From assembly GCF_027924665.1 (NCBI RefSeq), contig NZ_AP027043.1, positions 1,116,001-1,180,000 on the forward strand: a stretch of DNA of 64,000 nt. Direction: 5' to 3'. The stretch's first letter is position 1, and each line of letters opens with the position of its first letter. This document shows positions 700-29,589 of the stretch, in pieces. The notes beneath the pieces are model-generated. The model did no database searches, was not told the DNA's origin, and saw nothing but the letters and a program-made list of their open reading frames with translations. Position numbers and translations under genes: made by a program. This stretch comes from Flavobacterium sp. GSB-24 (GTDB taxonomy: Bacteria > Bacteroidota > Bacteroidia > Flavobacteriales > Flavobacteriaceae).

Positions 700-1311
700 A
701 TGGCTTTTGAATTACCACAATTACCTTATGCATATGACGCATTAGAACCACATATTGATGCTCGTACAATGGAAATCCACCATACTAAACATCACAATGC
801 ATATACGACAAATCTTAATGCGGCTATCGCTGGAACAGATTTAGAAGGAAAAACAATCGAGAATATCTTGATCAACTTAGATAAATCTAATGCGGCAGTT
901 CGTAATAATGGTGGAGGTTTTTACAACCACAATTTATTCTGGACAGTAATGTCACCAAACGGAGGTGGATTACCAACAGGAGATTTATTAGAAGCAATTG
1001 AAGCTTCTTTTGGATCATTTGATGAATTTAAAGCAAAATTTGCTAAAGCTGGTGCAACACAATTCGGTTCAGGATGGGCTTGGTTAACAGTTCAAAAAGG
1101 AGGGAAATTAGAAGTTGTAGGTACTCCAAATCAAGATAATCCATTAATGCCAGAAGTTGCTGGAAACGGTGGAACTCCAATCTTAGGAATGGATGTTTGG
1201 GAACATGCTTACTATTTAAACTACCAAAACAGAAGACCAGATTATATTGAAGCTTTCTTTAGTGTAATTAACTGGACAGAAGTAGCTAGAAGATTTGCTT
1301 TAGACAAATAG
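700..1311 (+). CDS. sodA: Superoxide dismutase, Mn-type signature
   Basis: Converts superoxide to oxygen and hydrogen peroxide. The 203-residue length is normal for the Fe/Mn family. The metal ligands are visible as H27 (EIHHTKHH), H77 ([11 protein letters not shown]), D165 and H169 (DVWEHAYY). Second-shell residues favour manganese or a cambialistic enzyme: GGGFYNH near residue 71 and the glutamine of TPNQDNPL near 145 are MnSOD features, whereas FeSODs place the glutamine about 70 residues earlier. There is no signal peptide, so the enzyme is cytoplasmic. It appears monocistronic, with its own -7 element upstream and a strong terminator downstream. Metal preference is inferred from sequence only. 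Confidence 0.95.
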
Positions 1312-1373: not shown

Positions 1374-1451
1374 GTCTATATTCTTTTATTTCTCTTTAGT
1401 CTATTTTCTGTAATCTATATTCTCATATCTTTTTTTCTCTTCTAAAAAAAA

Positions 1452-1522
1452 TAAAAAAGGTGGAATTTCTTCCACCCTTTTTGCCCCAAATCTACCATAT
1501 ACTTAACCTACTAATGTTATGG
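1452..1522 (-). ncRNA. Putative small RNA, array copy 1
   Basis: Read on the minus strand, this gives a ~71-nt RNA: a 6-bp hairpin (ACCAUA / UAUGGU) around a 16-20 nt loop, the linker AGAUUUGGGGCAAAAA, then a terminator hairpin GGUGGAA-GAAA-UUCCACC followed by UUUUUU. It differs from copy 4 at a single base within the transcribed part, an A opposite A at the top of the first stem. A -7-like TATATTTA lies at 1528-1535, about 6 bases before the expected 5' end, but a good -33 box is missing. The flank up to about 1600 is nearly identical to the flank of copy 2, so the unit was duplicated together with its promoter region. No ORF of note lies in it. Confidence 0.65.
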
Positions 1523-1630
1523 TGTAGTAAATATATAGAAGGTAGTTTTGTAAAAAAAACTTTTTAGATGAAAGGTAAGTAAATCCGATAAATGGAATGT
1601 AATTAATTGATTTTGTTAGATTTATTACAA

Positions 1631-1701
1631 TAAAAAAGGTGGAATCTCTTCCACCTTTTTTGCCCCAAATCTACCATAAACTTAACCTACTAATGTTATG
1701 G
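1631..1701 (-). ncRNA. Putative small RNA, array copy 2
   Basis: Same plan as copy 1, with a perfect first stem (CCAUAA / UUAUGG) and the same UUUGGGGC linker. The terminator hairpin GGUGGAA / UUCCACC carries a GAGA loop where copies 1 and 4 have GAAA. Both are GNRA tetraloops when read on the minus strand, which supports that orientation. The -7-like TACATTTA is at 1707-1714. A TTTG lies 15 bases upstream of it (shorter than usual), and a TTTT at the normal 20-base spacing. The distance to copy 1, measured at the GCCCC core, is 179 bases. Confidence 0.65.
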
Positions 1702-1813
1702 TTTAGTAAATGTATGGAAGGTAATTTTGCAAAAAAAACTTTTTAGATAAAAGGTAAGTAAATCCGATAAATGGAATAATCTGTTGTGATGTAAATACTT
1801 AAGTGTATTAACG

Positions 1814-1884
1814 AATAAAAAATCGGATTTTAATAAGCTTTTTTTTTGCCCCAATTTATTATAAACTTAATGTACTAATGTCTT
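1814..1884 (-). ncRNA. Decayed copy 3 of the small RNA array
   Basis: This unit keeps the TTGGGGCAAAA core (plus-strand GCCCC at 1848) and parts of the loop (CATTAGTA and TTAAGTTTAT on the minus strand). The first stem no longer pairs, and the terminator palindrome is replaced by an AT-rich sequence without a good hairpin. Spacing to copies 2 and 4 is 186 and 177 bases. It is best read as a degenerate member of the array and is probably not a functional transcript. The boundaries are approximate. Confidence 0.4.
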
Positions 1885-1993
1885 TGAATATATGTATGGA
1901 AAGTGTTCTCTGAAAAAACTTTGTAGTTAAAGGGAATAATTCGATCAAGATAAAGGTAATCTCTTGTTTTAGAAATATTTGAGTTTATTCCAA

Positions 1994-2065
1994 TAAAAAA
2001 GGTGGAATTTCTTCCACCCTTTTTGCCCCAAATCTACCATAAACTTAACCTACTAATGTTATGGT
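1994..2065 (-). ncRNA. Putative small RNA, array copy 4 (best promoter)
   Basis: This is the most complete copy. The minus-strand transcript would begin at about 2065 with ACCAUAA, pair it with UUAUGGU (7 bp, 16-nt loop CAUUAGUAGGUUAAGU), continue through AGAUUUGGGGCAAAAA and end in GGUGGAA-GAAA-UUCCACC plus six U. A consensus promoter sits at exactly the right distance upstream (2070-2101). The gene follows purF on the same strand, so its terminator would also stop purF read-through. No protein is encoded. Rfam covariance models such as Flavo-1 and published flavobacterial sRNAs should be compared, because I cannot tell from here whether the family has already been named. Confidence 0.75.
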
Positions 2066-2069
2066 CTCT

Positions 2070-2101
2070 CAAAAGTATTGTAGCTTTTCAATTTCACCAA
2101 A
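2070..2101 (-). promoter_or_regulatory. Consensus promoter of small RNA copy 4
   Basis: Minus-strand TTTG (2098-2101), 20 bases, then TACTTTTG (2070-2077). This is a full match to the flavobacterial housekeeping promoter. The predicted start, 5-7 bases on, falls at the foot of the first hairpin of the RNA. Confidence 0.75.
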
Positions 2102-2165
2102 CAAACAGGATGAACGGCAAAAAAAACCGATGAAATGCACTATTTAACCTTTTGTTAATACTTTT

Positions 2166-4064
2166 TTAATAAGCTCGAGCGTCTTTTCCTTCGTAAAAAT
2201 TCATAAAGGCACGATTTACAACTCTATTTCCGCCAGGAGTTGGGTAGTCTCCAGTGAAGTACCAGTCACCTAAATTTTTAGGACAAGCTTTGTGAAGATC
2301 TTCTACAGTTTGGAAAATAATTTTCACTTCAGCATTGATTTCTGGAGAGCTTAACATTTCTGCAATTTTATCTGAAATCTCCTCATCTGTAAATTGATCG
2401 TAAATTTCTGTTACATAATTTACAACATCAGAATCTGAGAAATTTTCTTGTGCTTTACATTTAGCATAAACTTCATCTACTATATGGTATAAGTTTCTTT
2501 CTTTTAATAAAGCAAGTGCTGCTCTAAAGGCAACTAAACCTTCTAGTTTTGCCATGTCAATTCCGTAACAATCTGGGTAACGAATTTGAGGTGCAGATGA
2601 AACAATAACAATACGTTTTGGTTTTAAACGATCCATCATTTTAATGATGCTCATTTTTAATGTAGTACCACGAACAATACTGTCGTCGATAATAACTAAG
2701 TTATCTTCTGGTTTAATTACGCCATATGTAACATCGTAAACGTGAGCTACTAAATCATCACGGCTGCTGTCTTCTGTAATAAAAGTTCTAAGTTTAGCAT
2801 CTTTAATAGCAACTTTCTCTGTACGTATTTTTACAGCTAAAAGCTCCTGAAGTGTTTCGGCAGTCAGTGTATTTCTGTTTTCTAAAATATAATTGTTTTT
2901 TCTCTGATTCAAGAAATCCTGTGCAGCTTCAACTAAACCATAAAATGAAGTTTCAGCAGTATTTGGAATATAAGAGAAAACAGTATTGTCTGTATCGCTG
3001 TCAATTGCTTTAAGAACAGCAGGTAAAATTAATTTCCCTAAATTTTTACGTTCTTGATAAATTTCAGCGTCACTTCCTCTAGAAAAATAAATTCTTTCAA
3101 ACGAACAAGCTTTTTTAACGGTTGGTTCCAAGATTTGATTCATAGAAACTTTACCGCTTTTCTTAATGATTAAAGCATTTCCTGGTTCAATTTCCTGAAC
3201 GCTTTCAAAAGGTACATTAAATACAGTTTGAATAACTGGTCTTTCAGAAGCTACAACAACTACTTCGTCGTCTTGGTAAAAATAAGCTGGACGAATTCCT
3301 GCTGGATCTCTAAAAACAAAAGCATCACCGTGGCCCAATAAACCAGCCATTGCGTAACCTCCATCTAAATTTTTAGCTGAACGAGCTAATATTTTAGCAA
3401 TATCCAAACGCTCAGCAATTACTGGAGAAGCTTCTCTTTTTGAGTAACCTTCTGTTTTACAGTCTTGATACAATTGCATTACTTCTTTGTCTAAGAAATG
3501 ACCAATTTTTTCCATTACCGTAACAGTATCCGCCATTTCTTTTGGATGCTGTCCAAGTTCAACTAGGTTTTCAAAAAGTTCTTTAACATTGGTCATGTTG
3601 AAGTTTCCTGCCAAAATCAAATTACGGTGCATCCAGTTGCTTTGACGTAAAAATGGGTGAACGCTTTCGATGCTGTTTTTCCCAAAAGTTCCGTAACGAA
3701 CGTGTCCTAAAAACAATTCGCCAACGTAAGGAATTTGTGATTTTATTTTATTGATGTCGTCACCAATTTCAGGCTGTGCTTTTAATTCTTCGCTGATTCG
3801 CTCATTGATTTGTTTAAAAACATCTTGTATCGGCTGTGCATGATTAGAACGAACTCTGCTGATGTAGCGTTGTCCAGGTTCTACATCCAATTTAATGCTT
3901 GCAAAACCAGCACCGTCTTGTCCACGGTTGTGCTGTTTTTCCATCATTAAATACATTTTCTGAATTCCGTAGAAAGCAGTTCCGTATTTTTCTTTATAAT
4001 ATTCAAGCGGTTTAAGAAGTCTAACTAAGGCTATACCACATTCGTGTTTTAAAGCGTCGCTCAT
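2166..4064 (-). CDS. purF: Amidophosphoribosyltransferase, large PurF-type
   Basis: PurF transfers ammonia from glutamine to PRPP, the first committed step of purine synthesis. Residues 1-8 precede C9 of HECGIA, which would become the N-terminal nucleophile after propeptide removal. The class II amidotransferase domain continues through HVRYGTFG (121-128), GNFN (153-156) and RDPAGIRPA (252-260). The PRPP-binding loop VIIDDSIVRGTT is at 457-468. At 632 residues it is about 120 longer than classical PurF, with extra sequence between the domains and at the C-terminus. As I recall, Bacteroidetes often carry such a long form beside a shorter PurF, so this may be the second enzyme. It lies downstream of a PfkB kinase on the same strand, but a terminator separates them. 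Confidence 0.88.
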   Translation of the reverse strand: MSDALKHECGIALVRLLKPLEYYKEKYGTAFYGIQKMYLMMEKQHNRGQDGAGFASIKLDVEPGQRYISRVRSNHAQPIQDVFKQINERISEELKAQPEIGDDINKIKSQIPYVGELFLGHVRYGTFGKNSIESVHPFLRQSNWMHRNLILAGNFNMTNVKELFENLVELGQHPKEMADTVTVMEKIGHFLDKEVMQLYQDCKTEGYSKREASPVIAERLDIAKILARSAKNLDGGYAMAGLLGHGDAFVFRDPAGIRPAYFYQDDEVVVVASERPVIQTVFNVPFESVQEIEPGNALIIKKSGKVSMNQILEPTVKKACSFERIYFSRGSDAEIYQERKNLGKLILPAVLKAIDSDTDNTVFSYIPNTAETSFYGLVEAAQDFLNQRKNNYILENRNTLTAETLQELLAVKIRTEKVAIKDAKLRTFITEDSSRDDLVAHVYDVTYGVIKPEDNLVIIDDSIVRGTTLKMSIIKMMDRLKPKRIVIVSSAPQIRYPDCYGIDMAKLEGLVAFRAALALLKERNLYHIVDEVYAKCKAQENFSDSDVVNYVTEIYDQFTDEEISDKIAEMLSSPEINAEVKIIFQTVEDLHKACPKNLGDWYFTGDYPTPGGNRVVNRAFMNFYEGKDARAY

Positions 4065-29403: not shown

Positions 29404-29477
29404 CTCCCCCTCTTGGGCTCGAACCAAGGACCCTCTGATTAACAGTCAGATGCTCTAACCAACTGAGCTAAGGAGGA
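29404..29477 (-). tRNA. tRNA-Asn (anticodon GTT), copy 1
   Basis: On the minus strand, the acceptor TCCTCCT pairs with AGGGGGA (one G-T), the D-arm holds AGCTCAGTTGGTTAGAGC, the anticodon loop CTGTTAA presents GTT between the stem strands CTGA and TCAG, and the T-arm is CTTGGTTCGAGCCCAAG. Discriminator base G, as usual for tRNA-Asn. CCA is not encoded. Length 74. Confidence 0.96.
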
Positions 29478-29515: not shown

Positions 29516-29589
29516 CTCCCCCTCTTGGGCTCGAACCAAGGACCCTCTGATTAACAGTCAGATGCTCTAACCAACTGAGCTAAGGAGGA
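29516..29589 (-). tRNA. tRNA-Asn (anticodon GTT), copy 2
   Basis: Identical in all 74 positions to the copy at 29404-29477 and 38 bases upstream of it on the same strand, so the two are one transcript with a shared terminator. Confidence 0.96.

Follow-up and report, generated by a model that had tools for sequence, protein, structure and literature searches.

The 854-bp gap between sodA and purF in the genome of Flavobacterium sp. GSB-24 contains, on its minus strand, three near-identical RNA units of ~72 nt and one decayed unit (Table 1). The gap lies in a 64-kb window, the whole stretch of DNA that was analyzed. The array begins ~100 nt downstream of purF and is encoded on the same strand. 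Each intact unit, called here copy A, B, or C in the order in which they follow purF, consists of an ACCATAA-loop-TTATGGT hairpin (ATATGGT in copy C) and a terminator hairpin of 13 pairs, joined by the linker AGATTTGGGGC; the terminator combines a G+C-rich stem with an A tract and a U tract. There are exactly three occurrences of the 16-mer CTACTAATGTTATGGT, against a chance expectation of 0.02 matches at two or fewer mismatches. For each intact copy, 0 of 200 dinucleotide shuffles fold as well as the native sequence. A DNA search of the rest of the 5.35-Mb genome revealed no further copies, so that all three reside at one locus.

Table 1. Positions of the array, its promoter elements, its neighbors, and the candidate regulator gene (window coordinates unless stated otherwise)
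Feature	Position	Strand	Remarks
sRNA copy A, purF-proximal	1993..2067	-	R1 105.9 bits; fold -23.3 kcal/mol, z -4.19
Parts of copy A	5' hairpin 2059-2065 with 2036-2042; linker AGATTTGGGGC 2025-2035; terminator 1995-2024	-	
Decayed sRNA copy	1815..1885	-	R1 27.3 bits; fold z -0.04; without terminator hairpin; without upstream box
sRNA copy B, intact	1630..1704	-	R1 107.3 bits; z -4.22
sRNA copy C, sodA-proximal, intact	1451..1525	-	R1 101.7 bits; z -4.07
LytTR-type direct repeat, copy A	2105..2140	-	GCATTTCATC 2129-2138 and GCCGTTCATC 2109-2118, period 20; profile score 41.9
LytTR-type direct repeat, copy B	1742..1777	-	Profile score 32.1
LytTR-type direct repeat, copy C	1563..1598	-	Profile score 34.2
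-7 box TACTTTTG, copy A	2070..2077	-	Fits the flavobacterial sigmaA -7 consensus TAnnTTTG
-33 TTTG, copy A	2098..2101	-	20 nt before the -7 box
purF, co-directional upstream neighbor	2166..4064	-	Best NCBIfam match TIGR01134, 131.9 bits, below the cut-off of 350
sodA (Fe/Mn superoxide dismutase), convergent neighbor	700..1311	+	PF02777, PF00081
L216 gene	G000:C1 about 3,077,078-3,077,776, outside the window	-	Between what we take to be priA and rpsF-rpsR

The original prediction, made from the letters alone, described four minus-strand RNA genes spaced 179, 186, and 177 bases apart, three of them near-identical and composed of a 5' hairpin, a linker, and a terminator. Those three copies are indeed present, scoring 101.7–107.3 bits with fold z values of -4.07 to -4.22, and the measured start-to-start distances of 179, 185, and 178 agree with the predicted ones to within 1. 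The count is what changes. Because the unit at 1815–1885 is a decayed copy, we recognize three genes rather than four, and the idea of a tandem family in which every gene has its own terminator applies to three of the four units. With respect to the terminators, a consensus scan of the minus strand listed that of copy C alone, and the other terminator hairpins come from folding. The GNRA terminator loop, likewise part of the original prediction, is a local feature: other genera read TCTC, ATCT, TTTC, ACTC, and so on.

Whether the units correspond to an Rfam family, Flavo-1 for example, had been left open. At gathering score, the array matches no Rfam 15 family, Flavo-1 included. STnc40, sraA, HrrF, and FopS give weak matches, far below gathering, and were rejected as identities. 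Across the whole window only two tRNAs reach the gathering score, and no family does so in four distant loci. The two tRNA genes are themselves in tandem (29404–29477 and 29516–29589) and have equal Rfam scores.

The RNA is widespread in Flavobacteriaceae. A plain DNA search finds it in 165 of the 199 genomes of the genus. For the family-wide search that the original prediction had proposed, a covariance model, R1, was made from 23 of 60 distinct units at 30 genus loci. At E<1e-6, R1 has matches in 312 of 397 genomes of the family, representing 194 genera. At E≤0.01, the tally is 329 of 397 genomes and 208 of 237 genera; 17 of these 329 lie above 1e-6, may be noise, and are left out of the former count. 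Even the weakest matches in the family that look genuine reach 45–50 bits, and in a sample of 196 genomes from the order, no score above 36.5 bits, the noise level, was obtained outside the family. Exact matches in named genomes, among the matches listed (80 loci of 120 stretches), belong to Flavobacterium species or to metagenome bins, one of which is labelled Lentimicrobium.

Both structure and genomic position are conserved. Specifically, 39 sources supplied 87 units, which we fitted to the model and which give 74 distinct rows. In this fitted 74-row alignment, the terminator stem covaries, with 9 of its 13 pairs changed on both sides somewhere, and it contains 111 compensatory cells, versus 26.2 in shuffled alignments and at most 25 when the pairing is slid. 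The terminator loop is not conserved across the alignment, and the linker is better conserved than the terminator stem. The 5' hairpin is predicted in all three intact copies and is kept in 90.9% of alignment cells; no pair of this helix 1 shows a two-sided change, and an inner pair fails to form in 44 of the 74 rows. A core of ~45 nt, ACCATAACATAAGTAGGTTAAGTTCATGGTAGATTTGGGGCAAAAA, hardly varies in the 87 units, the exceptions being changes such as an A inserted after GGTA or GGGAC for GGGGC. Variants in two genomes, G396 and G563 (L319, L321, and L324), have a rebuilt 5' part and retain AAGTAAAGTTCATGGTA and ATTTGGGGC. Together, these variants and the little-changing core point to AAGTT(C/T)ATGGTA(A)GATTTGGGGC as the working part.

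Regarding position, PurF and SodA homologs both flank the RNA at 32 of 39 loci taken from the family and order searches, four of which belong to the genus of the window; PurF alone is present at two loci and neither at five. Among the 80 named loci listed, the corresponding numbers are 63 with both, nine with PurF only, three with SodA only, and five with neither, and in the small-genome set both neighbors occur in 19 of 27 rows, with three others cut by contig ends. Five loci (L041, L045, L052, L056, and L063) have intact copies of the RNA with no PurF or SodA within ~1.5 kb. Copy number per locus ranges from one to at least six (L206), and 80 of 191 neighboring spacings fall at 180–190. The array is, by these computations, a member of an RNA family with a common structure and a common genomic setting.

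Each intact copy has a predicted promoter of its own in addition to its intrinsic terminator, as judged by a -7 box, an upstream direct repeat, and the folded hairpin. The flavobacterial sigmaA -7 consensus is given as TAnnTTTG in PMC9723704. The original prediction included a perfect promoter, TTTG-N20-TACTTTTG, and this does lie upstream of the purF-proximal copy; copies B and C lack it, having TTTT at the -33 place, one base off, and TACATTTA or TATATTTA at -7. New here, and absent from the original prediction, is a direct repeat that precedes each intact copy. The repeat, of GCATTTCATC with a 20-bp period near -60, exceeds the 99% level of shuffled flanks in 355 of 377 distinct units from 186 loci, as scored by a profile trained on the same units. 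A half-site distance of 20 bp is by far the commonest, with 173 cases in the genus set (next, 12) and 37 in the family set (next, 8). The repeat is also rare elsewhere. Specifically, the copy A repeat is the genome's only match without mismatch to the two-half-site pattern, and the window contains three profile matches of at least 15 in all, each preceding a different intact copy. Outside the window, 800 kb of the same genome contain four such matches, of which one, before the gene L222, reaches 22.6, the lower-quartile level of the units. In 400 kb of genome G321 there is no match of at least 15.

The arrangement resembles that of promoters controlled by LytTR regulators. According to PMC4847170, LytTR sites are two direct or inverse repeats of 9–11 nt that lie 11–13 nt apart and have no common consensus, and YpdB of E. 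coli binds a direct repeat of GGCATTTCAT. The predicted site before the array, GCATTTCAT plus 11 nt with a period of 20, follows this spacing rule, and its half-site GCATTTCAT has nine of the ten letters of the YpdB site. The -33 element is distributed unevenly. Among first copies of a locus in the genus set, 131 of 148 have a perfect TTTG 19–21 nt ahead of the -7 box; of 145 later copies, 24 have it and 112 are one base off. The family set has a perfect element in 6 of 84 cases. Thus, the first Flavobacterium copy may be active at a basal level too, and later copies and those of other genera look activator-dependent. That the copy A promoter looks complete without an activator counts against LytTR activation.

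The activator of the array is most likely L216, a protein with a receiver and a LytTR domain (PF00072 and PF04397). The GSB-24 genome has 19 LytTR matches. The L216 gene is bordered by genes that we presume, from our own reading of the open reading frames, to be priA, rpsF, and rpsR, and this order is kept at 48 of 53 loci and also in G218, G363, and G495. Of 67 ordinary genomes that have the RNA, 65 possess an L216 ortholog at E<1e-55, the exceptions being G277 (81% complete) and G286 (87%); 13 odd or small genomes are excluded from this count, and with them it becomes 68 of 80 at the same threshold. Among genomes that lack the RNA, 8 of 68 have an ortholog, five by E value (G310, G439, G490, G540, and G590) and three by synteny (G333, G293, and G495), where the 68 exclude 12 genomes with noise-level RNA matches, include some that are incomplete, and were checked for synteny in part. 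Three of those 12 (G208, G529, and G348) have an ortholog as well, and in 21 other genomes without the RNA or with noise-level matches, the best L216 matches (L334–L354) are not syntenic. Fisher's exact test for RNA versus regulator gives 1e-26, with kinship between genomes ignored. In one genus, represented by G208, G439, and G590, the regulator is there and the RNA is not above noise; the RNA may have diverged or been lost.

Small genomes tie the direct repeat to the same regulator. Of 20 small genomes that have the RNA, 17 possess at least one LytTR match, ten of them exactly one, and L216 is the best GSB-24 match to the LytTR genes of most. The L216 ortholog lies beside priA and/or rpsF in 16 of the 17, the exception being G362, whose sole LytTR gene is L220-like. 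Of 15 small genomes with the regulator at this place, 13 have a box, that is, a direct repeat, above the shuffled 99% level (scores 5.3–30.0), and none of the four small genomes without it does; G548 is not among the 15, because its contig stops within the box region. The four are G362 together with G384 and G554 (one genus) and G263, which have the RNA and neither a LytTR match nor a box. In G364, the box passes in a wider search window only, ~ten bases further upstream. G358 has a box shifted in the same way that scores 3.6 versus a threshold of 3.7, and in G363, which has the regulator, no box was found. By the stricter count, 12 of 15 versus 0 of 4, p is 0.009. RNA, repeat, and regulator therefore co-occur in these genomes.

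No kinase gene was found among the immediate neighbors of L216 in the GSB-24 genome, and a LytS-type partner was rejected because nine small genomes in which the L216 ortholog is the only LytTR gene contain no PF06580 kinase. The phosphate-accepting Asp is retained in 42 of 54 aligned L216-type proteins, with the 12 losses in genomes of 1.3–2.2 Mb; in L331–L333 and in small-genome L216 orthologs it is replaced by E, S, K, A, or Q. Together with the missing PF06580 kinases, these losses suggest that the DNA-binding output of the regulator outlives the phosphorelay.

We propose that the array is probably the locus of a LytTR-activated, multicopy family of trans-acting sRNAs. Each intact copy would be its own transcription unit with a sigmaA-type -7 box and a -33 element, and two direct half-sites (GCATTTCATC, 20-bp period, centered near -60) would be its activator site, through which L216 would activate the promoter. 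The ~72-nt RNA would begin close to the base of the 5' hairpin and end at the intrinsic terminator, and the nearly invariant AAGUU(C/U)AUGGUA(A)GAUUUGGGGC, partly inside the 5' hairpin, would pair with mRNAs. We infer transcription, activation by L216, and base pairing from sequence. More tentatively, and with some hesitation on our part, a one-regulator/one-RNA circuit could be ancient in the family. If so, the array would be almost the only conserved output of the priA-rpsF LytTR regulator, making the sRNA the effector of a whole signaling pathway, and reduced genomes without the kinase would keep the circuit with a degenerate receiver.

Base pairing is our best guess for the mode of action, and we favor it with reasonable confidence. 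A usual design of multicopy trans-acting sRNAs combines tandem near-identical short RNAs with activator sites and a linker that is conserved and unpaired. Strong predicted pairing of the segment occurs at translation starts about twice as often as in shuffles in two genomes (43 versus 21.4 of 635 and 35 versus 15.7 of 285; none of 30 shuffles reaches the observed count in either genome). Coding windows are also raised, at 61 versus 38 in the GSB-24 genome and 45–48 versus 32–38 in G321, as is antisense pairing in G321 (27 versus 15.8), and because these controls are raised, we regard the enrichment at starts as suggestive only. The strongest predicted pairing in the GSB-24 sample, -24.4 kcal/mol, is at the start of a DUF4369 protein gene (L394:11121-11889). 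The neighbors of the array were rejected as targets: mean seed z is -0.61 for 45 sodA leaders, -0.57 for 115, and -0.11 for 87 purF leaders, at most 4% of sodA or purF leaders have z < -2, and the raw duplex list for these leaders is misleading.

The foremost competing possibility, unlikely in our estimation yet deserving of attention, is that the RNA binds a protein instead of an mRNA, as CsrB does, which acts by titrating a protein. Conservation of stem and loop would then reflect protein recognition. Helix 1 hardly covaries and is conserved in sequence on both strands, multicopy arrays suit titration, and the pairing evidence is weak, all of which are compatible with this idea. Against it, a linker that is long, conserved, and unpaired is what one expects of a seed, and the G396 and G563 variants alter the 5' part yet retain AAGTAAAGTTCATGGTA and ATTTGGGGC.

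For the regulator, a rather improbable alternative accepts both the sRNA family and the box and assigns control of the array to another LytTR protein, L222 or several of the 19, with L216 co-occurring simply because it and the RNA are both core genes of the family. A box lies upstream of L222 and none upstream of L216 in the GSB-24 genome, an observation that counts against L216. However, the small genomes that have kept a LytTR gene have kept the L216 ortholog in its place in nearly every case, as described above. Moreover, six large genomes that lack the RNA (G200, G214, G223, G231, G311, and G317) have 6–16 LytTR genes and no L216 ortholog at E<1e-55. Relatives of L222 (45–56% identity, DNA-binding domain) occur in 20 of 99 other family genomes with no box nearby, and L222 was rejected as the general regulator on this ground.

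The remaining explanations fare poorly. That the units are 3'-UTR hairpins of purF, serving mRNA decay or termination without a trans function, would fit their position ~100 nt past purF on the same strand and the terminator that closes each intact unit. We nonetheless judge it very unlikely, given that each intact copy has a -7 box and a direct repeat of its own, that the linker is better conserved than the terminator stem, and that five copies have neither PurF nor SodA within ~1.5 kb. A REP/MITE-like transposable or repeat element would explain the array differently; the original prediction had named a transposable element as a potential refutation. It would explain near-identical tandem copies and is highly improbable: the GSB-24 copies are all at one locus, the purF/sodA synteny of that locus is kept across the family, and the 30-letter core pattern has no exact match in IMG/VR viral contigs. 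Equally implausible is a small protein or leader peptide read from a conserved AUG (MVDLGQK...), whose seven-codon start is conserved because the RNA is conserved and whose frame varies in length between 5 and 66 codons across 84 family-level units, the start shifting between MVDLGQK and MVRFGEK through an inserted A.

LytTR-activated sRNA arrays of the kind we propose have parallels among known systems. RNAIII is an RNA output of AgrA, and Qrr, the CiaR csRNAs, and LhrC are each encoded by several near-identical sRNA genes under common control, the latter three not being known to be related to the array RNA in sequence or regulator type. The array RNA could work like FopS and like AgrA–RNAIII, and is no FopS member. 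Specifically, the FopS model RF04319 gives 19.1 bits (E 3.2) over 1628–1686, the 3' part of copy B, versus a gathering score of 56, and FopS lacks the 5' hairpin. According to PMC11697453, which also names LhrC1-7, FopS of Bacteroides is likewise a multicopy Bacteroidota sRNA with a 71-position Rfam model that ends in an intrinsic terminator. In that account, the seed of FopS lies in a single-stranded 5' stretch that is followed by the terminator, and its 14 copies, described within Bacteroidaceae, are classed as intergenic, antisense, or 3'-UTR, whereas the array RNA begins with a hairpin, is in tandem, and belongs to another family. Rfp18 of F. psychrophilum, as described in PMC9723704, is similarly a Flavobacterium sRNA conserved in the genus; it is said to pair via a third stem-loop, which does not fit the two hairpins of each array unit, although a transcript spanning two units may exist and Rfp18 may be homologous to the array RNA. 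That study places 5' ends from uniquely mapped reads, a procedure that could under-report identical tandem copies. Among LytTR regulators, AgrA has promoter-proximal repeats centered near -60, as PMC4227749 states, and thus shares with the proposed circuit the regulator type, the two direct repeats near -60, and an RNA as an output; YpdB shares the regulator type and, by the site given in PMC4847170, the half-site GCATTTCAT. Unlike in these two systems, the output of the array would be a tandem short sRNA in Bacteroidota, and no kinase gene stands beside L216.

To our knowledge, few Bacteroidota sRNAs outside Bacteroides have an assigned function. Our searches of open-licence PMC text found no paper with the core strings of the array RNA and no account of this RNA or of a Bacteroidota LytTR–sRNA link; the supplementary sRNA tables of PMC9723704 and PMC5395568 are outside that scope and may hold its expression. 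The RNA combines presence in ~194 sampled genera (E<1e-6) with a near-constant core, a place beside purF, and one accompanying regulator. If our reading is right, it would be one of the phylum's widely conserved sRNAs and an entry point to a LytTR–sRNA pathway there, and the regulator, the promoter box, and the RNA are all testable in a tractable strain.

Finally, two additional boxes in the GSB-24 genome merit mention. L222 (G000:C1 ~754 kb) is a second LytTR response regulator, and the box upstream of it scores 24.8; its upstream ORF reads like a glycyl-tRNA synthetase, and downstream is an ORF of 81 aa that starts like a signal peptide and matches nothing in Pfam; cross-talk or a peptide-linked circuit is possible. 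At L232 (G000:C1 ~781 kb), a box with a score of 28.8 begins 142 bp ahead of an ORF whose start resembles a signal peptide, a possible member of the regulon.
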